From positions 1 to 37,560 of IMG/VR virus record IMGVR_UViG_3300044695_004454: a stretch of 37,560 bases of DNA. One strand, 5' to 3'. The DNA comes from a virus. The notes under the pieces were generated by a model. It saw only the letters and a list, made by a program, of their open reading frames with translations. It had not been told where the DNA came from and ran no database searches. The position numbers and the translations under genes were made by a program. Below, one piece after another: positions 15,404 to 32,273 of the stretch; position 1 is the stretch's first letter; each line of letters opens with the position of its first letter.

Positions 15404-17917
15404 ATGCAGCCATTGACAGACCGTCGTGGCTTGGTTGACCTACACCAAGCCCAAGAGCATCTTCGCCTCATATTCGGAGAGCGAGACTGGAAGGAGAACG
15501 AGTTCATCTGCGTTCGCGGTATCGGAGAGAAGGGCACCGAGCAAGAAGGCGTCTTCCGTGAGGACATCTTCGTTGAGCCAGCCAAGGAGGGCTTCGCCCC
15601 CGTGCTATCAGCCACCGAGCGGTGGGCGCAGTACAACGTGGCGACCTTCGTTGTCCCAGGCATCTTAAGCGATAGGAGGGCAACAAGCGCCAACGTGGCG
15701 CGGATGCGCTCGCTAGTCGCAGACCTTGATGCGGGGGACACTGATGCCAAGATGCGCGAGCTCACCGAACAGTTGGGTGAGCCGTCGCTGGTGGTGTGCT
15801 CCGGTGGGACAACCGACGAAGGCACGCCGAAGCGGCACGTCTGGTACGCGCTGGATGATGAAGTGCCCGTGGAGCAGGCCATCCGGATGCGGGACGCTCT
15901 TGCCAAGGTCTCAGGCGGTGACTCCGCCATGGGACTCGGGGTGGACTCAAACCCGTACGGCCGCGCCCACCAACCAATCCGACTCGCCGGCAGCGTCCAC
16001 GCCAAGCAGGGCAGGCCCGTGCAGACCGTCATCGAGTGGCAGTCCGAGAGTGTGTACAACGCGGGAGCTCTGGGGGAGCGGCTGCGCACGTTGCTGCCGG
16101 CGGGAGAGGCCATGGTTCCGGAAGCAGGGTTGTTTGGAGTCGGCAGTGGGAACGTGCTCCGTCAGGAGCCGGCGTTCCAGCGGGACGTGTTCGAGGGGGG
16201 CGCCGGCGGGGAGACTCGGTGGGATGCGTTCAACTCGGTGGCTGGTGCGAATCTCGGGATGGTTCGGCGGGGCGTCATCACGATGGACGAGGCACGCGAG
16301 CAAACGCGGGGATGGATGCTGCAACGAATGCACCCAGCGTGGACGGACGCACGATTTGCTTCGGAGTGGCAGGGACTCGTCAACGCGGACATCCGCCGCA
16401 ACGGAAAGCCAGATGCACCGGCGTCGGCTCCGTCCCCCGTGCGCCAGCTCCCGCAGAGTTCGCCAACGGAGTCGTGGTTCTCCGCATGGGAAGCGCACCG
16501 GTGGATCAAGTACCCCAAGCCCGAGCACACCTACCTTGTTGAGGCGCTTGTCGTCAAAGGCGAGCCGCATCTGTTCATCGCCGAGGGAGGAGCGGGGAAA
16601 ACTGGCCTAATCGCCGATTTAGCGTTGAAAGTGGCCGCTTATCCCGAGTTCGGCGGGGATTTGGACTGGTGTGGGCAGCGAATCACCAACGGCGGAACCG
16701 CTGTTCTGCTCTTGTGCGAAGACAGCCAGACCGAGATGCACCGGCGTATCTTGGAGATTGACCAAGGCGGGCTCATCGCAAAGGCCGGTCGGCGCCTTGT
16801 CGTCATACCGCTCTCAGCAGTTGGTGGGGCGTTCCCGCTTGTTGAGCGCGACCCCAAGAGCGGGGCACCGGTGGCGTCTTCAAAGTGGGAGGCTGTCATC
16901 ACTGAGCTCAAGCGAGTGCCTGACCTCTGCCTTGTGTGCGTAGACACCTTCAACGCGGTCTCCCACGGGGATGAGAACAACGCGCTGGCTGTTGCGGAAA
17001 TGATGCGCGAGGCAGGGCGCGTGTGCGGGGAACTTCGGGCGGCGCTTATGATAACGCACCACATCCGAAAGCCTGGGGCCGAGCCCATCCGCACGCTCAA
17101 GGACATGAAGAACTCGATCCGTGGGAGCAGCGCCATACCGTCGTACTTCCGCATCAACTTGGGGTTCTGGCACGCCACCGATTACGAGCGCCGCATGAAG
17201 GGCATGGGCCTCGCGCCGCGTGTAGACTCCTGTTACCGGTTCGGGGTGCTTAAGGCGAATATCTCGGGCCTCATGCGCGGCGAGCGCACACTGCTTCGGG
17301 ACGCCAACGGACTGCTTCAGGACGTCACCAAGGTGGACGTCTACAGCGCCATCAACGTGACCGAGCGTCTTGCGTGGCTGGTGCTGGCTGTGCGAGAAGC
17401 AGCAGGGAACCTGCACCCGTACACGCTGGGGAACAAGAACGCAGCCAACGGGCTCTACAAGCGCCGGTCTGAACTTCCACCGGTACTGCGGGCAGTTGGT
17501 GCGAGCGAGTTCGGGCACCTCATCGAGGAGGGCCTCCAGAAGGAGCTTATCGTCTCCTGCGCGGTCAAGGGCTCAAAGTCGAAGAGCTACCTTGATGTCC
17601 CAGGCGGGGTGCTGGCGGGGGATGAAACCGGTGCCACCATCCAAGCTGGAGCGTACTCATCCCTACCGGACTGGAACGAGTACGTCTTCGATGCGGAGAC
17701 CGGCACCTGCGTAGGCAAGGCCGGTCGGGCCGCATGGGGGGCTACCTTCTCATCCACGGGGGCGCAGGCTTTTGATCAGCCGCATCCACAGGATGAATCG
17801 CCGGTGCTGCCTGAGGAGCCACCGGCGTCCCTGCCTGCAATGCGCTCTCGATTCGCTCAAGGCGAGCGCATAGGTCTCCCGAGAGCCGCTCGACCATCTT
17901 CTCAAGATGACGAATAG
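15404..17917 (+). CDS. Primase-helicase with RepB/AEP-like N-terminus and RepA-like ATPase
   Basis: The 837-residue protein has two halves. The N-terminal half has VADLDAGD (residues 105-112) and SGGT...GTPKRHVWYAL (133-150). These fit the metal-binding DxD strand and the later histidine strand of archaeo-eukaryotic-type primases. The C-terminal half is a RecA-fold ATPase: GGAGKT (395-400, Walker A), LVCVDTF (510-516, Walker B), THHIRKPG (551-558). This is close to RepA-type hexameric helicases. Together they would prime and unwind the phage origin for host polymerase. The last 45 residues are disordered and acidic at the end (SSQDDE); their DNA overlaps a leftward gene by 176 bases. The start at 15404 follows an A/C-rich leader. 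Confidence 0.85.
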   Translation: MQPLTDRRGLVDLHQAQEHLRLIFGERDWKENEFICVRGIGEKGTEQEGVFREDIFVEPAKEGFAPVLSATERWAQYNVATFVVPGILSDRRATSANVARMRSLVADLDAGDTDAKMRELTEQLGEPSLVVCSGGTTDEGTPKRHVWYALDDEVPVEQAIRMRDALAKVSGGDSAMGLGVDSNPYGRAHQPIRLAGSVHAKQGRPVQTVIEWQSESVYNAGALGERLRTLLPAGEAMVPEAGLFGVGSGNVLRQEPAFQRDVFEGGAGGETRWDAFNSVAGANLGMVRRGVITMDEAREQTRGWMLQRMHPAWTDARFASEWQGLVNADIRRNGKPDAPASAPSPVRQLPQSSPTESWFSAWEAHRWIKYPKPEHTYLVEALVVKGEPHLFIAEGGAGKTGLIADLALKVAAYPEFGGDLDWCGQRITNGGTAVLLLCEDSQTEMHRRILEIDQGGLIAKAGRRLVVIPLSAVGGAFPLVERDPKSGAPVASSKWEAVITELKRVPDLCLVCVDTFNAVSHGDENNALAVAEMMREAGRVCGELRAALMITHHIRKPGAEPIRTLKDMKNSIRGSSAIPSYFRINLGFWHATDYERRMKGMGLAPRVDSCYRFGVLKANISGLMRGERTLLRDANGLLQDVTKVDVYSAINVTERLAWLVLAVREAAGNLHPYTLGNKNAANGLYKRRSELPPVLRAVGASEFGHLIEEGLQKELIVSCAVKGSKSKSYLDVPGGVLAGDETGATIQAGAYSSLPDWNEYVFDAETGTCVGKAGRAAWGATFSSTGAQAFDQPHPQDESPVLPEEPPASLPAMRSRFAQGERIGLPRAARPSSQDDE

Positions 17918-19645: not shown

Positions 19646-20014
19646 ATGGTCACACCAAATAACGACGAGCAGAACGAGTACACCCCCGGCATCCACGACA
19701 CCGGTCTTCCCGTGATGGAGCCCGAGGACATCATCCGAAACTTGATGCGGGCGCTGGAGCGGATGGAGAAGCGGCTCGACCGCGAGATAGCCGCTGCAAG
19801 CGACCTGCGCGAGAAGCTGATGGAGGCGGAGAAGCTGGTGGCGGATGGCACGCACGTGGTCAGCGAGCTCAAGGAGCGGCTGCTGTCGCGGGTCGTTGCG
19901 GATCTGGAGTGGAGGGGCGGGGACAAGGGGCTGCTGCTGGACGCGGACCGGTGGATGCAGGCGTGTGTGCCCACGGTGGTGCGTGTGACCATGGCCGAGG
20001 AGTTCGGGTTATGA
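19646..20014 (+). CDS. Coiled-coil hypothetical protein
   Basis: This encodes 122 residues: an acidic N-terminus, then a long amphipathic coil (IIRNLMRALERMEKRLDREIAAASDLREKLMEAEKLVADG...). The leader is a clean CCAA/CAA repeat (ACCAACCAACCAACAACAAC) and has no Shine-Dalgarno sequence. The stop overlaps the next start (TTATGA). The C-terminal RVTMAEEFGL may be a short folded piece. Function unknown. Confidence 0.7.
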   Translation: MVTPNNDEQNEYTPGIHDTGLPVMEPEDIIRNLMRALERMEKRLDREIAAASDLREKLMEAEKLVADGTHVVSELKERLLSRVVADLEWRGGDKGLLLDADRWMQACVPTVVRVTMAEEFGL

Positions 20015-20307
20015 CCGCGCATCCCCAAAACACAGCCCAAAAACATCCCAAAAGCACCGAGTTTACTCTGTTGGGTGCGTTTGAGGACGAGGGGGTAATA
20101 CAGCAGTCAAACAACCGCAGGACGCACACGCCAGCGCCAGCGCACGCAGAACATTCGCTGAGTGCAGGCGTCGCCCAAGTCGACGCACTCATCAGACTGC
20201 TACAGGCAAGAAAAGCAGGGAGCACAGCGGCGCAAGCCGCTGCCATCAGCAGCGCCATCAGCAGGCTCAGGAGAACTCTGTTGCCAGAGAACGCCATCGT
20301 GCGGTAA
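20011..20307 (+). CDS. Hypothetical protein, last gene of the rusA operon
   Basis: The 98-residue protein has a disordered N-terminal half (HPQNTAQKHPKST..., THTPAPAHAEHS) and a helical C-terminal half (VAQVDALIRLLQARKAGSTAAQAAAISSAISRLRRTLL). It overlaps the previous gene by four bases. A longer in-frame start at 19909 would be wholly within that gene and is rejected. A structured non-coding segment follows. Function unknown. Confidence 0.6.
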   Translation: MTAHPQNTAQKHPKSTEFTLLGAFEDEGVIQQSNNRRTHTPAPAHAEHSLSAGVAQVDALIRLLQARKAGSTAAQAAAISSAISRLRRTLLPENAIVR

Positions 20308-20322
20308 AGGTATCAATCTTCC

Positions 20323-20405
20323 GGCGTGCTGCTTGTACAGCAATGAACTAAACCTGAATCACGTTCAGAGCGGGTGAAACGAGAACAAGAACGAAACAGC
20401 ACGCC
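20323..20405 (+). ncRNA. Candidate structured RNA
   Basis: GGCGTGCTG (20323-20331) pairs perfectly with CAGCACGCC (20397-20405), closing a 65-base loop. Inside lies a second stem, CTGAA (20354-20358) with TTCAG (20364-20368). A strong hairpin follows six bases later. A closed multi-stem unit with its own terminator is the usual look of a small phage RNA or a structured 3' end. This is a hypothesis; no known family is recognised. Confidence 0.4.
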
Positions 20406-20410
20406 AGAAG

Positions 20411-20447
20411 CCCCGTCCCGCCGAGTGGCGGGTTCGGGGTTGATTTT
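20411..20447 (+). terminator. Terminator-like hairpin after the rusA operon
   Basis: CCCCG-T-CCCGCC (20411-20422) pairs with GGCGGG-TT-CGGGG (20427-20439) around a GAGT loop, giving 11 bp with a small internal loop. It is followed by TTGATTTT. The T-run is imperfect but the stem is very strong. Confidence 0.6.
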
Positions 20448-20514
20448 CCGCGAACGCACTGCGGGGCCAGTCCGGCTGCGAAACGGCGTGACAGGCCGGA
20501 GAGACGGCCACCAA

Positions 20515-20609
20515 AAAACCGGATCAACGTTCCAGTTTCAAAAAGGCTGACGGGATTTTCAGATTCGTGAAAAGTTTTCCCAATCCCAGAAAATCGGAAA
20601 ACCGTTTCA
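20515..20609 (+). repeat. 95-bp direct repeat, copy A
   Basis: It aligns without gaps to 20718-20812, with 72 of 95 positions identical by hand count. A fully conserved 15-base block TTCGTGAAAAGTTTT lies in the middle, and conserved ends read AAAACCGGAT and GTTTCA. Start-to-start spacing is 203 bases. Confidence 0.8.
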
Positions 20610-20717
20610 CCCACAAAACAGGACGTAAATCCGTTTGTCCGGTTGCGCAGCCCAGGCAGCTCCCGCGCAGCGGACACGCGAAGCGTGCTTCCAGGCGCCA
20701 GATCCGAATCCAGCCAG

Positions 20718-20812
20718 AAAACCGGATTAACGATCCAAATCCAAAACGGTTGGCAGGATTTTCGATTTCGTGAAAAGTTTTTGGAGAGGGAGGAAACCGG
20801 AAAACGGTTTCA
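20718..20812 (+). repeat. 95-bp direct repeat, copy B
   Basis: This is the second copy of the 20515-20609 repeat. It ends in a perfect inverted repeat GAAACCG-GAAAA-CGGTTTC (20793-20811), which is imperfect in copy A. Confidence 0.8.
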
Positions 20813-21000
20813 GGTGGAAAATCAGGGTTTCAGAGGGGTTCAGGTGTGGAAAGGCGCACTAAGTTGAGTTTGATTAGGTTGGATTTAAGGGTGAAAAGGT
20901 GAACGCGTACAGAGGAGCGGGGAGAAACATAGGCCTAGAGCGAGCGGAAAGGGGCCTAGAGCGAGAGGAAGGAAGCGGGGAAGGTAGGTACAGCGGACAA

Positions 21001-21043
21001 GGGGTGAGAAGGGCGGGAAGGGGCGAGAGGGAAGCGGGACGGG
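21001..21043 (+). other. G-quadruplex-prone G-run array
   Basis: Seven runs of three or four G lie within 43 bases, in a purine-rich stretch immediately before the leftward operon's terminator. This exceeds the usual four-run quadruplex pattern. A 13-base direct repeat (GGCCTAGAGCGAG at 20932 and 20953) lies just upstream. Confidence 0.5.
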
Positions 21044-21053
21044 AGAGGACACG

Positions 21054-21084
21054 AAAAAGGCCGCATCCAGTGAAGGACGCGGCC
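21054..21084 (-). terminator. Intrinsic terminator of the leftward operon
   Basis: Read leftward, GGCCGCGTCC pairs with GGATGCGGCC (one mismatch, 6-base loop) and is followed by TTTTT. It lies 24 bases past the stop of the last leftward gene (21109) and closes the ArdA operon. Confidence 0.85.
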
Positions 21085-21108
21085 ATAGGATAGGGAGAGG
21101 AGTGGGTG

Positions 21109-21300
21109 TCAGTGTCGGTACAGCCTGCCGTCAGAGCCGACGCGCCAAGCGTCAACGGGGGGAGGGGGAGCGGTCCGTACCTTGCAAGGTACAAGAAACG
21201 CTTTATCGGCTGCAGTCTGCGCAGACTCTAGGGTTGGCGCTTGTATCGTACCAAGGTACGCGCCGGTTGGCGTGTTGACGTATAGGTGGAAAGTTTGCAT
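21109..21300 (-). CDS. Small protein of unknown function, leftward operon
   Basis: This encodes 63 residues: FHLYVNTPTGAYLGTIQAPTLESAQTAADKAF looks like a small beta-beta-alpha unit, followed by VRTAPPPPVDAWRVGSDGRLYRH. It is the last gene of the leftward operon, 24 bases before the terminator. No Shine-Dalgarno is seen before the ATG (TTACGCACCC). The early-type position beside ardA suggests host takeover or anti-defence, but nothing in the sequence proves it. Confidence 0.7.
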   Translation of the reverse strand: MQTFHLYVNTPTGAYLGTIQAPTLESAQTAADKAFLVPCKVRTAPPPPVDAWRVGSDGRLYRH

Positions 21301-21312
21301 GGGTGCGTAATT

Positions 21313-21561
21313 TTAAAGGCCCAAATCGCGCACAATCCGCTTCAGCGCTGTGTCTAGGTGAGTGTCATTCGCGTAACGATAAATGTCTTCCAACGCTATA
21401 TTTTCGGCACCGCTTCTTCTCGCAAACGTGAACAAGTCCCAGCGGAAGCGCCTTTCTGGGTCTTTTCCGAGTTTTAGCGCTTTATACGCGAGCACTTGCT
21501 CGCGGTTGAATGAGCCGATGATGCTTTTTAGTACGGTGTAGTGTTCGGGCGTTATTTTCAT
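21313..21561 (-). CDS. Small helical protein of unknown function, leftward operon
   Basis: The 82-residue protein is largely helical, with EHYTVLKSIIGSFNREQVLAYKALKLGKDPERRFRWDLFTFA and a second helical half, LEDIYRYANDTHLDTALKRIVRDLGL. It is balanced in charge, with no cysteines. The leader reads CCCAAACCCAAACCCAAACCG, a three-fold hexamer, with no Shine-Dalgarno sequence. It lies 12 bases upstream of the next leftward gene. I do not recognise the family. Confidence 0.75.
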   Translation of the reverse strand: MKITPEHYTVLKSIIGSFNREQVLAYKALKLGKDPERRFRWDLFTFARRSGAENIALEDIYRYANDTHLDTALKRIVRDLGL

Positions 21562-21604
21562 TTCTTTGTTTCGGTTTGGGTTTGGGTTTGGGTGCGCGTT
21601 AAAC

Positions 21605-21853
21605 CTAGGCGAGTACCGCTTCGAGGTGCTCTAGCAAGTAGTTCTCAACAAGCGTGAGCGCCTTGCGCACTTGCTCGCGTTCAGCAACAGCTTCTCGCCA
21701 TTGCTCGTCGCTATAGTCTCGTGCGTTGAACTCGATTTCACGCATGGAATCCTTCAGCGCTTCCAACGCGATGTGCGCGTTGCTGAGTTGTTCCGCGAGT
21801 CTGTCGGTTGGAGTACCGAAAACTTTACTGTAGTGGGGAGTTGTGACTTTCAT
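21605..21853 (-). CDS. Small helical protein of unknown function, leftward operon
   Basis: The 82-residue protein has a short N-terminal segment (TTPHYSKVFGTPTDRLAEQL) followed by a long acidic helical hairpin (AHIALEALKDSMREIEFNARDYSDEQWREAVAEREQVRKALTLVENYLLEHLEAVLA). The shape is close to the 21313-21561 protein but I see no clear homology. The leader ACTACCAAAACAA has no Shine-Dalgarno sequence. It directly follows ardA. Confidence 0.75.
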   Translation of the reverse strand: MKVTTPHYSKVFGTPTDRLAEQLSNAHIALEALKDSMREIEFNARDYSDEQWREAVAEREQVRKALTLVENYLLEHLEAVLA

Positions 21854-21880
21854 TTGTTTTGGTAGTTAAAGGGTTCTGTT

Positions 21881-22405
21881 TTAGTGATTTCGGTTGAAGA
21901 AGAATCCGTTTTCTTCGACGAAGTCGAAGCGTAGAGTGCTATTCCAAACCGCTTGCCAGTCGATGCAAGCGCCCAAGAATGAGGGGATTGCGTTCATGTC
22001 GTAGTTTTCCGAAACATACTCTTCGGCGAAGTCTTCGGTTGAGTTAAACTGCCCGGCGCAAGCTTCTTGCGCGTGACTGAGTGAGGATTCATCGAACGAG
22101 TAACCAAAGCATTCCGCAAACGCTTCCCAAATAGCTTGTTCCGCATCATTGCAGTCAATCCAGTCCCAAAGGGCTGGAGACAAATAGCTTTCGCCATAAA
22201 AGGCGCGAGGGAAGCCTTCGAAATCCTGAAACATCAGCTCGGGGTCGGATTCGTCTTTGTGTAGTTCGAGACAAGCGTCCCTAAAGGTTTCAGCATCATG
22301 ACCTTCAAGCTTTATCCACGCTCCTTTTATGGATCCGGAGTTATATTTGGCGTAGGTGCCAACGTACACGGCGGGAGACACTTCGGTGTAGTTTTGTGTT
22401 TTCAT
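21881..22405 (-). CDS. ardA: ArdA-family antirestriction protein
   Basis: The 174-residue protein matches the ArdA pattern: VYVGTYAKYNSGSIKGAWIKLEG at residues 13-35, then ELMFQDFEGFPRAFYGESYLSPALWDWIDC (about 57-86). The overall charge is strongly acidic. ArdA proteins mimic B-form DNA and block type I restriction enzymes soon after DNA entry. The length is near the usual 165-170. The gene is transcribed leftward from the divergent region at 22.6 kb. Its leader is a repeated ACCAA (AACCAAACCAAACCAAACC) without a Shine-Dalgarno sequence. Confidence 0.88.
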   Translation of the reverse strand: MKTQNYTEVSPAVYVGTYAKYNSGSIKGAWIKLEGHDAETFRDACLELHKDESDPELMFQDFEGFPRAFYGESYLSPALWDWIDCNDAEQAIWEAFAECFGYSFDESSLSHAQEACAGQFNSTEDFAEEYVSENYDMNAIPSFLGACIDWQAVWNSTLRFDFVEENGFFFNRNH

Positions 22406-22454
22406 GTTTGTTTGGTTTGGTTTGGTTTGGTTTTACTGACTCAGGTAAAGGGGT

Positions 22455-22610
22455 TTAGGAAAGGAGTGAACGCCAGAGGAGAACGGTGCTCCATAGAAAA
22501 AGGAGCATGACGCAGAGGGCTTCGGGGAGAGAGAGGGTGAGTTGGGAGAGGGCGAGGGTGTCGACGGCGACGAGGGTGAGGAAGCCGATGGATAAGAGGT
22601 TGTGTTTCAT
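22455..22610 (-). CDS. Small two-helix membrane protein, first leftward gene
   Basis: The 51-residue protein has two hydrophobic helices, LLSIGFLTLVAVDTLALSQL and LCVMLLFLWSTVLLWRSLL, joined by TLSLPEA. The ATG at 22610 is preferred over upstream TTG/GTG-type starts, whose extra residues are basic and unlike a signal. It is the first gene after the divergent control region and lies just upstream of ardA. A membrane-level early function (superinfection exclusion, host modification) is possible but not shown. Confidence 0.6.
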   Translation of the reverse strand: MKHNLLSIGFLTLVAVDTLALSQLTLSLPEALCVMLLFLWSTVLLWRSLLS

Positions 22611-22641
22611 GAGTTTGTGGGGTTTTCGTCTCGCTTGCAAC

Positions 22642-22674
22642 GTGCAAGCTTGGTGCAATGTTGGTGCAACATGC
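22642..22674 (+). promoter_or_regulatory. Three phased 11-bp GTGCAA repeats
   Basis: GTGCAA occurs at 22642, 22653 and 22664, exactly one helical turn apart (units GTGCAAGCTTG, GTGCAATGTTG, GTGCAACATGC). An inverted copy just left makes CTTGCA-ACG-TGCAAG (22634-22648). The array lies between the divergent leftward operon and terS, where a protein bound side by side could control both. Confidence 0.65.
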
Positions 22675-22695
22675 GGGGGATTGCAATGAGAAAAT

Positions 22696-22710
22696 GCGCA
22701 AAAAATGCGC
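22696..22710. promoter_or_regulatory. Palindrome GCGCA-A5-TGCGC, second CGCA-A5-TGCG site
   Basis: It contains the same 13-base core CGCAAAAAATGCG (22697-22709) as the operator candidate at 8122-8138. It lies 59 bases before the terS ATG and 86 bases before the first leftward gene, a position suited to controlling either. Confidence 0.6.
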
Positions 22711-22768
22711 GCAGAGAGAAAAGAGTGTCTCGCTTCACTGCCTCTATGGTCTGTAGTGGATTGGTTCG

Positions 22769-23110
22769 ATGGCTCTAGGTTTCAAGACAGGCGGAAGGCA
22801 GGCGGGAACGCCAAACAAGGCATCATTGACGCTGAAGGAAGCGATCCTCGCTTCTTTCGAACGCCTGGGGGGCGCTTCGTACCTGGAGGAAGTAGGAAGG
22901 CGTGAACCGCGTACCTACTGCGCACTATTGGCAAGGGTTCTACCTCGAAACGCTACGCCTGACGCAACGGCTGCGACTGTCGCAACGCTATCAGACGCTG
23001 AGATTCGGCAAAGGGTCGCTGGTATGTTGCGGGAAGGGTTGTCTCCCGCTGGCATTGAAACAGGGGAAGTAGTTGACGCTGTGGAGGTTGGAGAGAAAAG
23101 TGGTACTTGA
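22769..23110 (+). CDS. terS: Terminase small subunit
   Basis: The 113-residue protein opens with FKTGGRQAGTPNKASLTLKEAILASFERLGGASYLEEVGRREPRTYCALLARVLP (about residues 5-59), the conserved N-terminal domain of one group of phage small terminases. The rest is an Ala/Thr/Glu-rich region that could form the ring and the large-subunit contact. It would recognise the packaging start site and hand DNA to TerL, the next gene. The stop codon lies in a perfect palindrome (23104-23120). Confidence 0.8.
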   Translation: MALGFKTGGRQAGTPNKASLTLKEAILASFERLGGASYLEEVGRREPRTYCALLARVLPRNATPDATAATVATLSDAEIRQRVAGMLREGLSPAGIETGEVVDAVEVGEKSGT

Positions 23111-23331: not shown

Positions 23332-24777
23332 GTGAAAGAACTCAGTCCAGAAGAGAAAGCAGAACTGGTCATGTGCCTCGAGGAACTCCAGAGGCGCAAG
23401 CGTGAGCGCCGTTTGCTCGGTTACTACCCAGACACCGGACCCCTCAGGCGGGAGCTCTACAAGAAGCACCTAGCCTTCTTCGAGGCGGGGGCGAAGTACA
23501 AGGAGCGTCTGATGATGGCAGCCAACCGCGTCGGCAAGACGGAAGGCATCGGCGGCTTCGAGATGGCGGTACACTTGACGGGCCGGTACCCCTCATGGTG
23601 GACGGGCCGCCGGTTCGACCGGCCTATCTCGGCGTGGGCGGCGGGGGACACCGGTAAGACCTCACGGGACATCTTGCAGACGAAGCTTCTGGGACCGGCT
23701 GGGAGCCACGGCACGGGCCTCATCCCGAAGGAAGACATCCTGCGGGTGTCAGCCAAGGCCGGTATTGCAGACGCGGTGGAAATCATCGTGGTCCGGCACG
23801 CGTCAGGGGGCGAGTCGCGGTTAACGCTCAAGAGCTACGACCAGCGTCGCGAGAGCTTCCAAGGAACGGAGCAGGACATCATCTGGCTGGACGAGGAGCC
23901 ACCGCTGGACATCTACACGGAGTCGTTGCTGAGGACGATGACGAACGACGGTATGGTGATGCTGACGTTCACGCCGCTCTTGGGGATGAGCGAGACGGTG
24001 ATGGCGTTCTTGAGAGACGGGGAGGTGTGCGAGCGGGCGGAGGGGACGAAGTTCGTTGGGATGGCGACGTGGGACGACGTACCGCACTTGAGCCAAAAGC
24101 AGAAGGAGGATTTGTGGTCGAGCATACCGCCTTTCCAGAGGGACGCACGGTCGAAGGGCGTGCCGCAGTTGGGGGCAGGGGCGATATATCCGGTACCGGA
24201 GAGCGAGCTTGTGGTGCCTGACTTCGAGGTACCGGTGCATTGGCCGAGGGTGTTTGGGATGGATGTGGGGTGGAACAAGACAGCGGCGGTGTTTGGGGCG
24301 TTGGACCAGCAGAGTGACACGTTGTACCTGTACTCGGAGCATTATCGCGGTCAGGCGGAGCCGGCGATTCACGCGGAGGCGATAAACGCGAGGGGGCGTG
24401 GGATACCTGGGGTGATTGACCCTGCCTCCCGTGGCAGAACGCAGGTAGACGGGCAGCAGTTGTTTGTGAGGTACCGGCAGATGGGGTTGGACTTGACGGT
24501 GGCGAACAACGCGGTGGAGACGGGGATATACGACGTGTGGCAGCGGATGTCGACGGGGCGGCTGAAGGTGTTTAAGAGCATGACGAACTGGGTGGCGGAG
24601 TTCCGGTTGTACCGGCGGGACGACAAGGGCAGGGTTGTGAAGGAGAACGACCACTTGATGGATGCGACGCGGTACTTGGTGGTGAGCGGGCTGAACCGAG
24701 CGGCGTTAAGCCTGAAGAAGCGGATGCAGAAGCTCATTGACGTGGTACCGGTGATGAACTTCTTCTCGAGGAAGTAG
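23332..24777 (+). CDS. terL: Terminase large subunit
   Basis: The 481-residue protein has the packaging ATPase motifs ANRVGKT (residues 64-70), IIWLDEEP (183-190, Walker B with catalytic Glu) and LTFTP (211-215, coupling motif). The RNase H-like nuclease follows, with Asp 311 (FGMDVGWNK), Asp 363 (GVIDPAS) and Asp 444 (LMDATRY). The N-terminal YYPDTGPLRRELYKKHLAFFEAG resembles P22-type large terminases, which cut by the headful rule. The GTG at 23332 is the only good start, because an in-frame TAG lies at 23326-23328. No Shine-Dalgarno sequence is seen. Confidence 0.94.
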   Translation: MKELSPEEKAELVMCLEELQRRKRERRLLGYYPDTGPLRRELYKKHLAFFEAGAKYKERLMMAANRVGKTEGIGGFEMAVHLTGRYPSWWTGRRFDRPISAWAAGDTGKTSRDILQTKLLGPAGSHGTGLIPKEDILRVSAKAGIADAVEIIVVRHASGGESRLTLKSYDQRRESFQGTEQDIIWLDEEPPLDIYTESLLRTMTNDGMVMLTFTPLLGMSETVMAFLRDGEVCERAEGTKFVGMATWDDVPHLSQKQKEDLWSSIPPFQRDARSKGVPQLGAGAIYPVPESELVVPDFEVPVHWPRVFGMDVGWNKTAAVFGALDQQSDTLYLYSEHYRGQAEPAIHAEAINARGRGIPGVIDPASRGRTQVDGQQLFVRYRQMGLDLTVANNAVETGIYDVWQRMSTGRLKVFKSMTNWVAEFRLYRRDDKGRVVKENDHLMDATRYLVVSGLNRAALSLKKRMQKLIDVVPVMNFFSRK

Positions 24778-24892
24778 CAAGCTCCACGACTGCCCCAGCC
24801 AAGCCCCCAGCCCCCACAACTCCCAAGCCCCCAAGCCCCCAATCCCCTTACAACCCCTGCCCAGCCCCATTGACACAAGCCCTTAAACCCGC
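24778..24892. other. C-tract spacer between TerL and portal genes
   Basis: The 115 bases are almost free of G, with six C-runs of three to five between 24804 and 24847. The leftward strand fits a G-quadruplex pattern; the rightward transcript would have an unstructured C/A-rich leader. No gene is present. Confidence 0.55.
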
Positions 24893-26941
24893 ATGATGAT
24901 GAGCATGAAGAACGATCCGGTTAAGGTCCACGCGGACGCGCTTGCGGAGTTTGACCGCATACAAGAGGTACTCAGGAACGAGCGTTTGCAGTGCCTGCAA
25001 GACCGCCGGTTTTGTTCGATCCCAGGGGCTCAGTGGGAGGGGCCGCTTTCTGAGCAGTACGAGAACCGGCCTCGGTTCGAGGTGAACAAGACGCAGTTGG
25101 CGGTAATGCGGATTATCAACGACTACCGCTCAAACCGCATCACGGTGGAGTACGTCCCCAAGGAGAAAGAGTACGAGTCACTGGCAGAGACGTGCAACGG
25201 TCTATTTCGGGCAACGGAAGTGGACTCGAGTGCGGAAGAGGCGTACGACAACGCCTTTGAAGAGGCGGTGACCGGTGGGTTTGGGGCGTTGCGGCTGCGC
25301 AACGAGTACGAGGACGAGTACAGTGGTGAGAGCGACGAGCAGCGCATCTGCATTGAGCCGATTTACGACGCGGACTCCTCGGTGTACTTTGACTTGAACG
25401 CGAAGCGCCAGGACAAAGCAGACGCGAAGCGGTGCTTTGTGATTACGGCATTAACCCGTGAGGACTACGAAGCGGAGTGGGGGGACGACCCAACGACGTG
25501 GCCGAAAGAGATTACGCGCACCCAGTTCGACTGGCAGACGCCGGACGTGGTGTATGTGGCGGAGTACTACCGCGTGGAGGAGACGACGGACTACATGGTG
25601 ACGTTTGAGGGGCTTACGGGGGATGAGGAAAAGGAGCTTTTGTCGGTGCTCAAGGAAGGCAAGATGGAGGAGATGGAGGCGCTTGGGTACAAGGAAGTTA
25701 AGCGCAAGAAGATTAAGCAGAAGAAGGTGCACAAGTGGATTATGTCTGGGGGCAAGATCCTTGAGGACTGCGGGTACATTGCGGGGCGGTGCATCCCGAT
25801 TGTGCCGGTGTACGGGAAGCGGTGGTTTGTGGACAACGTGGAGCGGTGCATGGGGCACGTTCGGCTGGCGAAAGATATGCAGCGCCTAAAAAATATGCAG
25901 CTCTCTAAGCTCGCAGAGATTTCGGCGCTCTCGTCCATGGAGAAGCCCATCTTCATGCCTGAACAGGTAGCGGGGCATCAGGTGATGTGGGCGGAAGATA
26001 ACCTCAAGAACTACCCGTACCTGCTGGTGAACGGGATTACGGACGCGCAAGGCGCGGTGCAACCGGCACCTCCCTTGGCGTACACGAAATCCCCTCAGAT
26101 TCCGCCGGCGATGGGGGCTCTTTTGCAGGTAACAGACGTCGACATGCAGCAGCTCCTTGGGAGCCAAGGCAACGGGGACAAGATGGTGTCCCACGTTACG
26201 AGTAAAGCTGTGGACTTGGTGATGCAGCGGCTCGATATGCAGAGCTACATCTACGTGTCCAACATGGCCAAGGCCATTAAGCGCGTGGGCGAGATTTGGC
26301 TGTCCATGGCCAAAGACGTGTTCGTGGAAGATAAGCGCAAGATGAAGGTGGTGACGTCCAACGGCGAACAGGACGAGATTGAGCTCATGACACCGGTGAT
26401 TAACCCTGAGAGCGGTGAGCTTGAGTACGACAACGACCTGTCTGAAGCCGAGTTTGACGTGGCGGTGGACGTGGGACCCTCTTCGACAACGAAGCGGCAA
26501 GCGACGGTGCAGGCGCTGCTCTCGATGATGGCGGTGACGCAAGACCCTGAGACGATGAACGTGCTCTCGTCCATGGCGATGATGAACATGGAAGGCGAAG
26601 GGCTTGGGGACGTGCGGAGCTACTTCCGCAAGAAGCTGCTGAAGATGGGGGCGGTTAAACCCACCGAGCAAGAGGCCCAGGAGCTCCTTGCCGAGGCCCA
26701 GAACGCCCAACCGGACGCACAGGCGCAGTACTTCGCAGCAGAGGCGCAAAGGGCAAATGCGCTCGCTACAAAGGCACAGGCCGACACGGTGCTCACGCTG
26801 GCAAGGGCCGAGGAGACGCGTGCGAAGACCGAGGAAACGATTGCAAAGGCTGGTCAGATTGATCAGGACAAGGCGATGAAGCTGGCGGACCGCATCGAGA
26901 ACGATGTGCAGAAGCTGGTAGCGCCGGTGCAAACATTTTAG
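24893..26941 (+). CDS. P22-type portal protein
   Basis: The 682-residue protein starts with a helical region and WEGPLSEQYENRPRFEVNKTQLAVMRIINDYRSNRITVEYVP (about residues 43-85), a hallmark of P22 gp1-like portals. It continues with the wing and stem (ADSSVYFDLNAKRQDKADAKRCFV). It ends with a very long helical Ala/Gln/Glu barrel (about 600-670, TKAQADTVLTLARAEETRAKTEETIAKAG), the feature that forms the P22 portal barrel. The length is near P22 gp1 (725). It would form the dodecameric ring for DNA packaging and tail attachment. Several ATGs lie at the start; the first is given. Confidence 0.9.
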   Translation: MMMSMKNDPVKVHADALAEFDRIQEVLRNERLQCLQDRRFCSIPGAQWEGPLSEQYENRPRFEVNKTQLAVMRIINDYRSNRITVEYVPKEKEYESLAETCNGLFRATEVDSSAEEAYDNAFEEAVTGGFGALRLRNEYEDEYSGESDEQRICIEPIYDADSSVYFDLNAKRQDKADAKRCFVITALTREDYEAEWGDDPTTWPKEITRTQFDWQTPDVVYVAEYYRVEETTDYMVTFEGLTGDEEKELLSVLKEGKMEEMEALGYKEVKRKKIKQKKVHKWIMSGGKILEDCGYIAGRCIPIVPVYGKRWFVDNVERCMGHVRLAKDMQRLKNMQLSKLAEISALSSMEKPIFMPEQVAGHQVMWAEDNLKNYPYLLVNGITDAQGAVQPAPPLAYTKSPQIPPAMGALLQVTDVDMQQLLGSQGNGDKMVSHVTSKAVDLVMQRLDMQSYIYVSNMAKAIKRVGEIWLSMAKDVFVEDKRKMKVVTSNGEQDEIELMTPVINPESGELEYDNDLSEAEFDVAVDVGPSSTTKRQATVQALLSMMAVTQDPETMNVLSSMAMMNMEGEGLGDVRSYFRKKLLKMGAVKPTEQEAQELLAEAQNAQPDAQAQYFAAEAQRANALATKAQADTVLTLARAEETRAKTEETIAKAGQIDQDKAMKLADRIENDVQKLVAPVQTF

Positions 26942-27843: not shown

Positions 27844-29157
27844 ATGGCTAACTCGTTCAATAAAGAAGAGCGCGTAGCGTTTGAGAACCTCCTTGAGGGG
27901 TTCAATGACGCTCTTGTGCTGTCACGTAACGTCTCGATCTACAACACGGATCAGACGATGATGGAGCGCACCAACAACGTCATCTGGCGCCCACAGCCCT
28001 ACATTGCGACCTCGTTGTCGAATGCAGGGGTTGGGACGGACATCACCAGCGTTGGCGGCTACGCCTCCTACACCCAGCTGGCAGTTCCCGCCAGCATCAA
28101 CCAGACGCGCACGGTCGCTTTCGAGCTCAACGCTCAAGAGCTTCGTGACGCTCTGCAAGAGCAACGCCTTGGCAACTCCGCCAAGCAGAAACTCGCTTCT
28201 GACATCAACGTGTCGGTGCTGAACATCGCGGCCAATCAGGGCACGCTGGTGGTTAAGCGCACGAGCGCGGCAGGTGCTTCGAGCGGTTTCGATGACGTCG
28301 CCCAGTGCGAGGCCATCTTCAACGAGCAAGGCATCATGGATGGCGACCGCTACCTCGCGCTCAACACGCGGGACTACAACGGTCTTGCCAACGACCTCGC
28401 CAAGGCTTCGCGCTCCTTCGGGAACCAGAAGTCCGACAAGGCGTATGAGCGTGCGTATGTTGGCATGGTAGCGTCCTTCGACATCTACAAGCTGGACTAC
28501 GCGGTTCGTTTGGGTGCTGGGCTTGCTACAGCGACCATCAACACGACGGACGCTGGCGCGAACTACTACATCCCCAAAGCCATCTCGACCTCGCCAACAA
28601 CGGCAGAGCGTCTCAACGTGGACAACCGCTTCCAGTCCTTGACTGTGGCAGTTTCCGCTGGGGCTTTGGCCGCAGGCGACGCGTTCACGATCGCTGGCAT
28701 CAACGCAGTGCACCACATCACCAAAGGCGACACCGGTCAGCTTAAGACCTTCCGTGTCATCTCGGCGAGTGCGCCTGCTGCTGGTAACCAAGCAATCGTC
28801 ATCAGCCCGCCGCTCATCACGAACCAAGTTGCTAACGCCGCTTCCGCGCAGAACCAAAACTGCGTTGCGAACACGAAGGCAACCAACGCGTCAATCACGC
28901 TCCTGAACACGGCAGCAGCTCCTGTGAACTGCTTCTGGCACAAGGACGCGATTGAAATCCTCCCCGGTCGCTACTCGCTGCCCGACAACGCTGGCGTTGC
29001 GGTCATGCGCGGCTCGACCGACCAAGGGTTGGAACTCGTTATGACGAAGCGTTTCGACCAGAACACCCTCACGACCAAGTATCGTGTGGATACGTTCTAC
29101 GGGGTTGTGAACAAGCAACCCGAAATGAGTGGAATCATCCTGTTCAATCAGGTATAG
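27844..29157 (+). CDS. Major capsid protein, P22 coat family
   Basis: The 437-residue protein (P22 coat has 430) shares landmarks with P22 gp5: RTNNVIWRPQPY near residue 42, a long E-loop/spine region, and NVDNRFQSLTVAVSAGALAAGDAFTIAGINAVH (about 258-291), which corresponds to the P22 insertion-domain border. NCFWHKDAIEILPGRYSLP (about 360-378) and YGVVNKQPEMSGIILFNQ at the end are also present. It starts three bases after the scaffold stop. An excellent intrinsic terminator follows, as expected for the most abundant late product. Confidence 0.92.
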   Translation: MANSFNKEERVAFENLLEGFNDALVLSRNVSIYNTDQTMMERTNNVIWRPQPYIATSLSNAGVGTDITSVGGYASYTQLAVPASINQTRTVAFELNAQELRDALQEQRLGNSAKQKLASDINVSVLNIAANQGTLVVKRTSAAGASSGFDDVAQCEAIFNEQGIMDGDRYLALNTRDYNGLANDLAKASRSFGNQKSDKAYERAYVGMVASFDIYKLDYAVRLGAGLATATINTTDAGANYYIPKAISTSPTTAERLNVDNRFQSLTVAVSAGALAAGDAFTIAGINAVHHITKGDTGQLKTFRVISASAPAAGNQAIVISPPLITNQVANAASAQNQNCVANTKATNASITLLNTAAAPVNCFWHKDAIEILPGRYSLPDNAGVAVMRGSTDQGLELVMTKRFDQNTLTTKYRVDTFYGVVNKQPEMSGIILFNQV

Positions 29158-29169
29158 TTCCCGCTAACG

Positions 29170-29200
29170 GGGGGTGGCCCTTCGGGGCCATCCCCTTAAC
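29170..29200 (+). terminator. Intrinsic terminator after the coat gene
   Basis: GGGGGTGGCCC (29170-29180) pairs with GGGCCATCCCC (29185-29195), 11 bp with one G-U, capped by a TTCG tetraloop and followed by TTAACTTT. The T-run is interrupted, so partial read-through into the tail genes is plausible. Confidence 0.88.
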
Positions 29201-29220
29201 TTTACTGAAACCAAAGACTT

Positions 29221-29382
29221 ATGCCGCTCAAGAAGGGTTATTCGCAGAAGACAATCTCCTCCAACATCAGCAAGGAGATGAAGTCCGGTAAGCCGCAGAA
29301 GCAAGCGGTGGCAATCGCGCTCTCGACTGTCCGCAAAGCCAAGCAAGCAGCTGGAAAACCCGTCGGCAAACTCAAGAAGTAA
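29221..29382 (+). CDS. Small basic conserved phage protein
   Basis: The 53-residue protein contains [31 protein letters not shown], a block I know as recurrent in short basic phage proteins near capsid genes; the rest is Lys/Ala-rich. It follows the coat terminator and its stop overlaps the next start (TAATG). The high positive charge suggests nucleic-acid contact or packaging inside the head, but no function is established to my knowledge. Confidence 0.8.
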
Positions 29383-29693
29383 TGGAATTTCCAAGCATGG
29401 TGTACCGCTCACCAGGGCGGAATCAGGCAAGAGGTGGGACGTACGACTATTGTGGCGTCGAATCCCAAGAGGAACTCGATGAAGCCATCCAATACGGCTG
29501 GCACACCTCGGTTGAAGCAGCGGTAGACGCTTGCAATGCCGCTTTGGAGGCCGCTGAGAGGCTCAAGAACGAGCCGAAGGTCAAGATTGTGGTGACTGAG
29601 CCAAAAGTTGAGGCTGTGGCCGCTCCTGAGGCTCCTGAGCTTGTTTCTGAGGACGAAGAAGAAGACGAGAAACCGCGCCGCAGGCGCAAATGA
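29382..29693 (+). CDS. Conserved hypothetical virion-region protein
   Basis: The 103-residue protein has an N-terminal domain, VYRSPGRNQARGGTYDYCGVESQEELDEAIQYGWHTSVEAAVDAC. This GGTYD...EELDEA...GW pattern is frequent in small phage proteins encoded next to head genes. A variable linker follows, then an acidic-then-basic tail (SEDEEEDEKPRRRRK). It overlaps the previous gene by one base. Function unknown. Confidence 0.78.
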   Translation: MEFPSMVYRSPGRNQARGGTYDYCGVESQEELDEAIQYGWHTSVEAAVDACNAALEAAERLKNEPKVKIVVTEPKVEAVAAPEAPELVSEDEEEDEKPRRRRK

Positions 29694-29696
29694 CGC

Positions 29697-30173
29697 ATGG
29701 GATACACTAAACGCCAGTTTGTTGAGGCCGCTTTTGAGGAACTTGGACTGGCGTCTTACGTGTTTGACCTAACGCCTGAAGAGCTTCAGTCGGCGGTTCG
29801 CCGGTTGGATGCCATGGTAGCGCAGTGGTACGCGAAAGCCATCCAGATTGGCTATCCACTGACCAACTCGCCCGAGAACGCGGACTTGGACACCGAGACG
29901 AACGTGCCGATTACCGCGAACGAAGCCATCATCTTGAATCTGGCGATGCGGATTGCTCCGCAGTACGGCAAAGCGCCGTCTGTGGACACCAAGTTGGGGG
30001 CGATTTCGGGCTACCAGACGCTCCTTATGCAGAGCGCGAATGTCCTGCAACAACAGTACCCTTCTACGATGCCCGCGGGAGCTGGCAACAAAGACGTGGA
30101 TTGGCCGTTCCTGCCGGTGCCATCCATCGCTCCCATCGAGCAGGAACCAAACGGTCAACTTCAGTTCCGCTAA
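29697..30173 (+). CDS. gp4-like tail accessory factor
   Basis: This encodes 158 residues (P22 gp4 has 166). The N-terminal helix TKRQFVEAAFEELGL is followed by LTPEELQSAVRRLDAMVAQWYAKAIQIGYP and ITANEAIILNLAMRIAPQYGKAPS, the conserved gp4 architecture. In P22 this protein binds the portal and starts tail assembly. Gene order (coat, small genes, gp4, later gp10) is preserved. A peptidoglycan-cleaving activity has been reported for P22 gp4; whether it is kept here cannot be judged from the sequence. Confidence 0.88.
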   Translation: MGYTKRQFVEAAFEELGLASYVFDLTPEELQSAVRRLDAMVAQWYAKAIQIGYPLTNSPENADLDTETNVPITANEAIILNLAMRIAPQYGKAPSVDTKLGAISGYQTLLMQSANVLQQQYPSTMPAGAGNKDVDWPFLPVPSIAPIEQEPNGQLQFR

Positions 30174-30174
30174 C

Positions 30175-30618
30175 ATGGCTATTCAAAATCTCGATAACGT
30201 CGACAGCATCAGCCCCTCGACGTTGTTTGCTGTCAACCAGAACGGGCTCGATTATAACTGCACCGCAGCGGTGGTGGCTGACTTCATTGAGCAGAACGTC
30301 ACGGTCAACGATGGCAAAGTCATCCAGTACTCCTCGCCGATTAGCGGCTCGACGGTCGCCATCAGCGGCACGAACAACAGCGTGTGGTTGGTGCTTACCC
30401 CCATTAGCACAGTGGCCTCGCTGACGATCCAGCTCCCGCAGGTCTCGGGCTGCGTGGCAAACCAAGAGATTCTCGTCAACACCACCCAGACAATCACCGC
30501 TTTGACGGTGAACCTGAATGGGGCGGTCGGAGGCGGCGTTCCGACGACTCTCGCGGCAAACGGCTTCTTCACACTCCGGTTCGAGCCGGTCATCCAAAAA
30601 TGGTATCGCGTAGGCTAA
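30175..30618 (+). CDS. Hypothetical virion protein, beta-rich
   Basis: The 147-residue protein starts MAIQNLDNVDSISPSTLFAVNQNG and is almost all beta-strand pattern (VIQYSSPISGSTVAISGTNNSVWLVLTPISTVASLTIQLP..., FFTLRFEPVIQKWYRVG). It lies one base after the gp4-like stop. The N-terminus resembles short structural proteins of podophages near the tail hub. An in-frame upstream ATG at 29953 is inside the gp4-like gene. Likely a virion or head-decoration protein; not identified. Confidence 0.72.
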   Translation: MAIQNLDNVDSISPSTLFAVNQNGLDYNCTAAVVADFIEQNVTVNDGKVIQYSSPISGSTVAISGTNNSVWLVLTPISTVASLTIQLPQVSGCVANQEILVNTTQTITALTVNLNGAVGGGVPTTLAANGFFTLRFEPVIQKWYRVG

Positions 30619-30619
30619 T

Positions 30620-30913
30620 ATGACACTCCCATTCAATCCCTCTTACGGTAGCGGACAAACCCAGTCAGCAACTGGAACCTCCGCCCAGTACAGCATCCGC
30701 TCTGGCACCCGCAGCATTTGCGTGACCAACACCGGTGCAACCAATCCGGTGTTTGTCCGCATCGGGCAGGGCACGATTACCGCAACGACCGCTGACTACA
30801 TCGTCATGCCGAGCAGCCAAGTGTCCCTTGGCAAGTTCGAGGACGATAACGTCATTGCAATCATCTCGCCTTCTGGAACGACGGTTAACTTCATCTGCGG
30901 CGCTGGCCTGTGA
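30620..30913 (+). CDS. Hypothetical virion protein, small beta-sandwich
   Basis: The 97-residue protein has the pattern YSIRSGTRSICVTNTGATNPVFVRIGQGTITATTADYIVMPSSQVSLGKFEDDNVIAIISPSGTTVNFICGAGL. Alternating strands suggest a compact beta-sandwich as in phage head-decoration or tail-attachment proteins. It starts one base after the preceding stop, and its own stop overlaps the next GTG. No specific family is recognised. Confidence 0.72.
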   Translation: MTLPFNPSYGSGQTQSATGTSAQYSIRSGTRSICVTNTGATNPVFVRIGQGTITATTADYIVMPSSQVSLGKFEDDNVIAIISPSGTTVNFICGAGL

Positions 30914-31073: not shown

Positions 31074-32273
31074 ATGCCTGACATTACAGTATCCTCTGAC
31101 ATCGACTCCTTCATGCAGTCTGCCAATCGGCAGGCCGCGATGGATAACCTCGCCGGCGCAACTACCTCCGGTCAGTACCTTCGCGGGAACGGATCGGACG
31201 TTGTTATGTCGGCAATCCAAGCCGCTGACGTCCCAACGCTCAACCAGAACACCACCGGCACAGCGGCTGGCCTCAGCGCAACGCTGGCTGAGACGTCTGG
31301 TGGCACGGGGAAGACCAGCTACACGAACGGCCAGCTTCTCATCGGCAACGCCGCAGGTGGCCTCACCAAGGCTACGCTGACGGCTGGCTCGAACGTGACT
31401 ATCACGAACGGGGATGGCGCGGTGACGATTGCGGCCACCGGCGGTAGCGCAACGCCGACGGATGTGCAGGTGTTCACCTCCAGCGGGACGTGGACGAAGC
31501 CGGCAGGGGCTGTCTACGTCGATGTGGTTGTGATTGCAGGCGGCGGCGGAGGTGGCGCTGGAAGAAAAGGCGGCACCACAGCAACAGCCCCAGGTGGAGG
31601 CGGCGGCGCAGGCGGGTCTTATTCTGCGAGGGGCTTTCAGGCATCCCTTCTTGGGGCTACGGAAACTGTCACAGTTGGCGCAGGCGGTACTGGAGGGGCT
31701 GCTGTAACCGGAACAAACGTCAACGGAACGGCTGGATCCGCTGGAGGAGCATCTTCGTTTGGAACGCTCGTTCAAGTGTCCGGAGGAGGAGGCGCAGGTG
31801 CCACGACAACAGCAAGCGGTCCTGCTGGTTCGGCGGCATCGGCTAGGGCAATGTTCCAAGGAACATCGGGTTCAAACGGAGGAACTGGAGCAGGTCCTTC
31901 TACAACAAGTGCACTTGTCGGAGCAGGAGGCGCAGGCGCAGGCGGAGGTCTTCCTGCTTCAGCTACGGTTGGATTTGCAGGCGGAAATGGTGGAACGTCG
32001 TTATCCACATGGTTTACCGGAGGTTTAGGCAGCGGAGGCGCCATTTCCTCAAACGGAGGTTCCGCTCCGAATGTAGCGGCAAACCTTCCATTGTGTTCTG
32101 GTGGAGGTGGGGGAGGCGGATCTAGCTTCACGGGCAACGGAGGTGACGGCGGAAACGGTGGCCTCTACGGTGGCGGAGGGGGCGGAGGTGGAGCTGCTCT
32201 TGATGGAGTGACCTTCTCAGGCAAAGGCGGGGACGGATCGCAGGGCATCGTTGTTGTAACAACCTACTTCTAA
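31074..32273 (+). CDS. Glycine-rich tail fibre or receptor-binding protein
   Basis: The 399-residue protein has three parts. Residues 1-60 (SDIDSFMQSANRQAAMDNLAGA) resemble fibre repeats. The next region, about 60-125, has TLAETSGGTGKTSYTNGQLLIGNAAGGLTKATLTAGSNVTITNGDGAVTI, a phage tail-collar/fibre signature. From residue 135 there is VQVFTSSGTWTKPAGAVYVDVVVIAGGGGGG and long Gly-rich runs to the end. The last part matches the glycine-rich domains of phage adhesins that may form polyglycine-II sandwiches. A receptor contact is likely. Genes for small neighbours follow immediately. Confidence 0.8.
   Translation: MPDITVSSDIDSFMQSANRQAAMDNLAGATTSGQYLRGNGSDVVMSAIQAADVPTLNQNTTGTAAGLSATLAETSGGTGKTSYTNGQLLIGNAAGGLTKATLTAGSNVTITNGDGAVTIAATGGSATPTDVQVFTSSGTWTKPAGAVYVDVVVIAGGGGGGAGRKGGTTATAPGGGGGAGGSYSARGFQASLLGATETVTVGAGGTGGAAVTGTNVNGTAGSAGGASSFGTLVQVSGGGGAGATTTASGPAGSAASARAMFQGTSGSNGGTGAGPSTTSALVGAGGAGAGGGLPASATVGFAGGNGGTSLSTWFTGGLGSGGAISSNGGSAPNVAANLPLCSGGGGGGGSSFTGNGGDGGNGGLYGGGGGGGGAALDGVTFSGKGGDGSQGIVVVTTYF

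Follow-up and report, generated by a model that had tools for sequence, protein, structure and literature searches.

A conserved pair of 93-bp noncoding elements between the replication and packaging genes of an uncultured phage family

What might a long direct repeat do in a large noncoding gap of a phage genome? The question is raised by the window, that is, the whole stretch of DNA that was analysed, the 37,560-bp IMG/VR virus record IMGVR_UViG_3300044695_004454. Here, an 801-bp noncoding gap (20308-21108) separates the last early plus-strand gene from a minus-strand block with an ArdA-like gene, and the repeat lies inside this gap. The paired element thus sits between the DNA-replication genes and the packaging genes of an uncultured phage family.

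The repeat pair and its surroundings

The preliminary description of this DNA reported two repeat copies aligned without gaps at a 203-bp offset, and the pair is real. The best 95-base window is identical at 72 of 95 positions, against a mean of 44.2 and a maximum of 49 in 300 dinucleotide shuffles of the 801-bp region, which served as the chance baseline. The length of 95 bp did not hold, given that conservation among relatives sets the unit at 93 bp (Table 1). An exact core, TTCGTGAAAAGTTTT, is found at 20564-20578 and 20767-20781 and nowhere else in the record. No reading frame accounts for the repeats, as had been claimed: the plus-strand gene on the left stops before them, the minus-strand gene on the right lies after them, and no credible gene overlaps. 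The dyad GAAACCG-GAAAA-CGGTTTC noted in copy B is present (20793-20811), but it is probably incidental, because the B copies of other phages do not preserve it. The motif AAAYCGGAA is kept in B copies while the dyad is lost or broken.

Table 1. Coordinates of the paired element and neighbouring features in the window
Feature	Position	Strand	Basis or remark
Primase-helicase, AEP PrimPol domain and AAA_25 helicase	15404-17917	+	Pfam, Foldseek; candidate actor at the pair
Final early gene on the plus strand, left of copy A	20011-20307	+	
Predicted intrinsic terminator, plus-strand early operon	20411-20447	+	
Element copy A, 93-bp noncoding site	20515-20607	+	nhmmer, model h3, 2.5e-24; alignment of 47 copies
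Block CCGGAT	A 20519-20524; B 20722-20727	+	GGAT invariant in 30/30 distinct copies; column counts
Core TCGTGAAAA	A 20565-20573; B 20768-20776	+	CGTGAAAA invariant in 30/30 distinct copies; column counts
Short spacer between A and B	20608-20717	.	Elsewhere a slot of 0.7-1.7 kb with minus-strand accessory genes
Element copy B, 93-bp noncoding site, oriented as A	20718-20810	+	nhmmer, 7.5e-25; alignment
Purine-rich noncoding block between copy B and minus-strand operon end	20811-21058	.	
Predicted intrinsic terminator, minus-strand operon	21059-21084	-	GGCCGCGTCCTTCACTGGATGCGGCC TTTTTCG
Minus-strand gene nearest right of the 801-bp gap	21109-21300	-	
Block of minus-strand genes that ends to the right of copy B	21109-22405	-	Includes ArdA-like anti-restriction gene, 21881-22405

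The early plus-strand operon encodes a Sak4-like annealing protein, a Cas4-domain exonuclease, a RadD-like helicase, the primase-helicase and a RusA resolvase, and P22-like head genes (terminase, portal, scaffold and coat) occupy 23.3-29.2 kb. The nearest named phage by terminase is EBPR podovirus 1 (JF412294), at 62%, and the named-phage collection gave no DNA match. Integrase, repressor and ParA/ParB families were unmatched among the proteins scanned (not every small ORF was included), and there is no evidence for the partition-like site that had been suggested.

Several features of the neighbourhood were recorded in their own right. The terminator of the minus-strand operon, a hairpin with a T-run, is present in relatives too. 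The stretch from copy B to the last stop codon of this operon (20811-21108 in the window) has a near-constant length, about 285-296 bp in nearly every relative, although the most diverged phages differ in its sequence; its plus strand is purine-rich. The minus-strand genes (21109-22405 in the window, and the slot genes of relatives described below) often start with ATGCAAAC and A/C-rich repeated leaders (CCCAAACC-like), which suggests that a common leader sequence moved along with the genes. Several direct repeats of 47-60 bp, about 80-85% identical, occur between 13415 and 14153, amid small genes that lie upstream of the gene for the Cas4-like exonuclease, and similar repeats are numerous in L186, L215, L216 and L218. 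In the stretch 27844-30913, the coat gene and the three genes compared after it match their G001 (L143-L145) counterparts at about 100% identity, whereas terL, portal and scaffold are 90-96% identical; this contrast is a sign of recent module exchange.

Conservation of the element and a second type of pair

A pattern of 18 fixed bases was used to search IMG/VR for the element (type 1). It was found in 27 contigs, always on the same strand within a contig; 23 carry exactly two copies, one (L087) carries three and three carry one. The single copies are best read as belonging to contigs cut within the region, as L100 ends 175 bp beyond its copy, and in L021 and L025 the leftward sequence to the contig end consists of minus-strand slot genes. 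Each of ten longer records, scanned over its whole length (G007 without its last 60 bases), has two copies and no others. A contig with a 71% identical primase-helicase, L178, has one weak type-1 copy near its end. The preliminary description had reasoned that relatives with one copy or none, and no sequence constraint, would point to a chance relic. Pairs and constraint were found instead, and the shuffle test together with this recurrence rules out a chance relic. A host or prophage origin was rejected as well, the 36 pattern hits in bacterial and archaeal genomes being at background by the model (best E 0.044).

Forty-seven copies from 24 loci fit one near-gapless model of 93 positions, and the 30 distinct copies align gaplessly except for one extra base in one copy. 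The blocks fixed across copies are CCGGATTA, GATTTT, the invariant CGTGAAAA and AAAYCGGAAAAC. Among the 30 distinct copies, the invariant columns are GGAT (7-10), AA (28-29), TT (44-45), CGTGAAAA (52-59), TT (62-63), AAA (78-80), G (83) and AA (85-86), with variable stretches between them. These column counts and kept blocks bear out, across relatives, the earlier claim that parts of the repeat are constrained while the rest drifts. In L034, L035 and L038, the most diverged phages, the DNA outside both copies is unrelated to that of the window and the blocks are retained; the element is therefore itself the unit under constraint. The constraint is at the DNA level, with no sign of constraint at the RNA level.

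The spacer between the copies is 110-144 bp in nine pairs of the IMG/VR pattern scan and 0.7-1.7 kb in thirteen. Long spacers hold minus-strand genes that differ between phages, and the proteins of this slot that were tested matched no Pfam family. Varied small minus-strand genes adjoining the ArdA-like operon fill the slot in L008 (1912-3325), L026 (416-1668) and L034 (5265-6913), and a cysteine-rich family, NKYPADCxxCGCRVPA, occurs among them. These small genes are candidates for an anti-defence role.

A search with the primase-helicase led to more distant phages whose protein is about 50% identical. Six of these, L187, L190, L191 (13585-13649 and 13709-13773), L193, L194 and L195, carry another, unrelated-looking pair (type 2), a noncoding direct repeat of about 65 bp (GGGTCCCCTTTTTCCGAGTAAATTNACTTTTGAGAAATGG...). 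It is also found in L056, a terminase relative that also has the primase-helicase (52%); L185 has one copy near its contig end. The type-2 copies are placed where the early genes meet the minus-strand block, or slightly within this block, a position that matches type 1. Homology between the two types was considered, as they have words that are alike with one reversed, but it was rejected because mutual profile scores do not exceed the level of shuffles; judged in this way, type 1 and type 2 are positional analogues only.

Among the 17 terminase-relative records searched, the primase-helicase is present only in L056 and in one edge fragment, and no comparable noncoding pair was found in terminase relatives without this protein in which the region is covered. 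Repeat pairs seen in the terminase relatives L004, L016, L033, L042, L049, L052, L055 and L075 were leader, coding-like, tandem or low-complexity sequences, and were rejected as analogues. The association of pair and primase-helicase is imperfect, because L196, L197 and L210 (48-51% primase-helicase, no terL match) showed no noncoding pair in the stretches examined. The group at 42-44% likewise showed none in the stretches examined.

The two copies of a genome also resemble each other more than expected from permuted partners, with an identity of 0.727 vs 0.688 for type 1 (0 of 5000 permutations) and 0.729 vs 0.676 for type 2 (P 0.0014), in a permutation test that does not remove phylogeny and is therefore inflated by shared ancestry. 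The word AATCGGAATG occurs in both copies of L034 and of L035, and in L190 TTTTGG replaces AAATGG in both copies. A shared binding protein, or patchy conversion between copies, would explain such co-divergence. A tree of the 93 columns neither supports nor rejects a single clade of A copies (AU p 0.335).

Candidate roles of the pair

Taken together, the pair is very probably a double-stranded-DNA site bound by a protein. Among the roles offered by the preliminary description, paired binding sites for a phage protein fit best, as judged by the near-gapless blocks, the two copies per genome and the co-divergence within genomes; nothing points to an anti-defence decoy, which had also been proposed. 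More specifically, and with rather less than even confidence, we propose by analogy with P4 that the pair is part of a replication-initiation region. This is our first choice because of the pairing, the place behind the replication operon, the co-occurrence with the primase-helicase and the precedent of P4 crr. The copies would be cis-acting double-stranded sites of about 93 bp each, with several fixed blocks, bound by a single protein or complex specific to the phage. Assembly on both copies would be the task of a replication protein, plausibly the primase-helicase that the phage itself encodes or one of its partners, which would then load and prime, acting much as the P4 alpha protein does at the repeats of the P4 origin region. 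Protein binding, the identity of the binder and replication as the output are what we infer here.

The candidate protein has an AAA_25 domain (Pfam, 9.8e-30), being a RecA-like helicase, and an AEP PrimPol fold (Foldseek match to 6zp9, E 1.3e-9, TMt 0.80). Its model has a mean pLDDT of 56 and is confident only in the N-terminal domain, and no origin-binding or winged-helix domain is visible in the poorly modelled C-terminal part. Of the features of an iteron plasmid-type origin (short tandem iterons, an AT-rich unwinding region and a DnaA box), none was demonstrated; there is no iteron array in 19800-21600, and the single plus-strand occurrence of TTATNCACA in the genome is at 32001. The GC skew at fourfold sites does not change sign at the pair; its peak to the right of the pair was discarded as evidence of an origin, as it also appears in phages without the pair. 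The excess of G over C at fourfold sites in terL and portal (23332-26941) is about 0.4-0.55 and is absent from the primase-helicase gene, and this terL/portal skew is also seen in relatives without the pair. For a compact origin, a spacing that varies between 173 and about 1740 bp and takes up inserted genes is unusual.

It is rather unlikely that the pair is an operator or promoter region for leftward accessory genes, with a phage regulator binding each copy and controlling the unit to its left. The unit to the right of each copy ends in an intrinsic terminator, so that a separate promoter is needed for the leftward gene that comes next, and B is there when the slot has genes; in addition, a leftward gene starts about 50 bp from type-2 copy 1. 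However, both copies are still conserved in the nine pairs with a short, gene-free spacer, and in type-1 phages the genes to the left of copy A are on the plus strand. The element has no consensus sigma-70 -35/-10 hexamers, and the only sigma-70-like match in 20200-22800 lies elsewhere, at about the number expected by chance.

An improbable reading is that the copies are the boundaries of an accessory-gene (moron) slot, with the conserved blocks serving as recombination joints for cassette exchange. It would account for the varied gene content between A and B and for the rearranged copies: copy A of L038 (from 6708) is chimeric with its joint at the core, the middle copy of L087 (from 3502) / L044 (from 687) is likewise chimeric (B/A), and L087 carries three copies. 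The chimeric copies, whose joints fall inside conserved blocks, show, as read from their alignment, past recombination within elements. Nevertheless, A and B of one genome are only 62-77% identical, intact contigs contain no single-copy A x B recombination product, type-2 pairs are mostly gene-free between the copies, and exchange alone would not hold separate blocks fixed.

A packaging or DNA-ejection site, read by terminase or another late protein, is very improbable: in the window the pair is found 2.5 kb upstream of terL, where early genes give way to late ones, but the interval from the pair to terS/terL changes in length with the minus-strand genes, and terminase relatives at 64-78% identity that have no primase-helicase have no pair. 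Least probable of all are duplicated small RNAs, also raised earlier, or structured RNA or single-stranded-DNA hairpins, to which the perfect 7-bp dyad of copy B and a small hairpin after copy A in some relatives might point, given that folding is ordinary on both strands (the window copies have z-scores of -1.98 to -0.12, a type-2 pair has positive ones and the whole region has -1.3), the dyad is lost in other B copies, Rfam gives no match at gathering scores and the region has no promoter-like match.

To our knowledge, origin choice in phages with AEP-type primase-helicases is poorly understood. A conserved paired 93-bp site with a co-occurring candidate protein in a small genome makes this question directly testable. 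If the role is regulatory or recombinational instead, the pair would still explain how these phages maintain, next to an anti-restriction operon, a slot in which accessory genes can be exchanged. It is possible, if doubtful, that such pairs form a new class of phage replication or genome-control site, namely a long direct-repeat pair, putatively protein-binding and tied to the AEP-primase-helicase replication module. Such a pair would keep its position and its paired state from one phage group to another although its sequence becomes unrecognisable, and its spacer would double as an accessory-gene slot.

Comparison with known systems

EBPR podovirus 1 (JF412294) shares the P22-like head module, but the element was not found in its record. 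Lambdoid morons are small gene units with their own terminators, placed between major operons. In the present phages, by contrast, the boundary is a conserved 93-bp site, which is paired even when gene-free.

Plasmids of the pRN1 type resemble the present case in having primase and helicase in one protein (ORF904, AEP). The candidate origin of pRN1 lies just downstream of the ORF904 gene, and its authors have described similar layouts in several phages (PMC4234260). That candidate origin is a large stem-loop, whereas folding is ordinary here and the repeats are two linear ones; moreover, the helicase of pRN1 belongs to SF3 and not to AAA_25.

In phage P4, crr is made up of two noncoding direct repeats, each about 100 bp long and separated by a short distance, and the short iterons are GGTGAACA-like. 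These iterons are not the conserved blocks of the 93-bp element, and no P4-type iterons occur in its copies; GGTGAAC has one occurrence close to the region, at 20898 and not within either copy, and is present at four other plus-strand sites in the genome. The alpha protein binds the repeats at the P4 origin via a winged-helix domain (PMC4234260). It is a Toprim primase, whereas the protein found here combines an AEP primase with an AAA_25 helicase. The likeness lies in the arrangement: two long direct repeats in noncoding DNA are found here too, and just as P4 replication is run by its own primase-helicase, this phage has a primase-helicase of its own.
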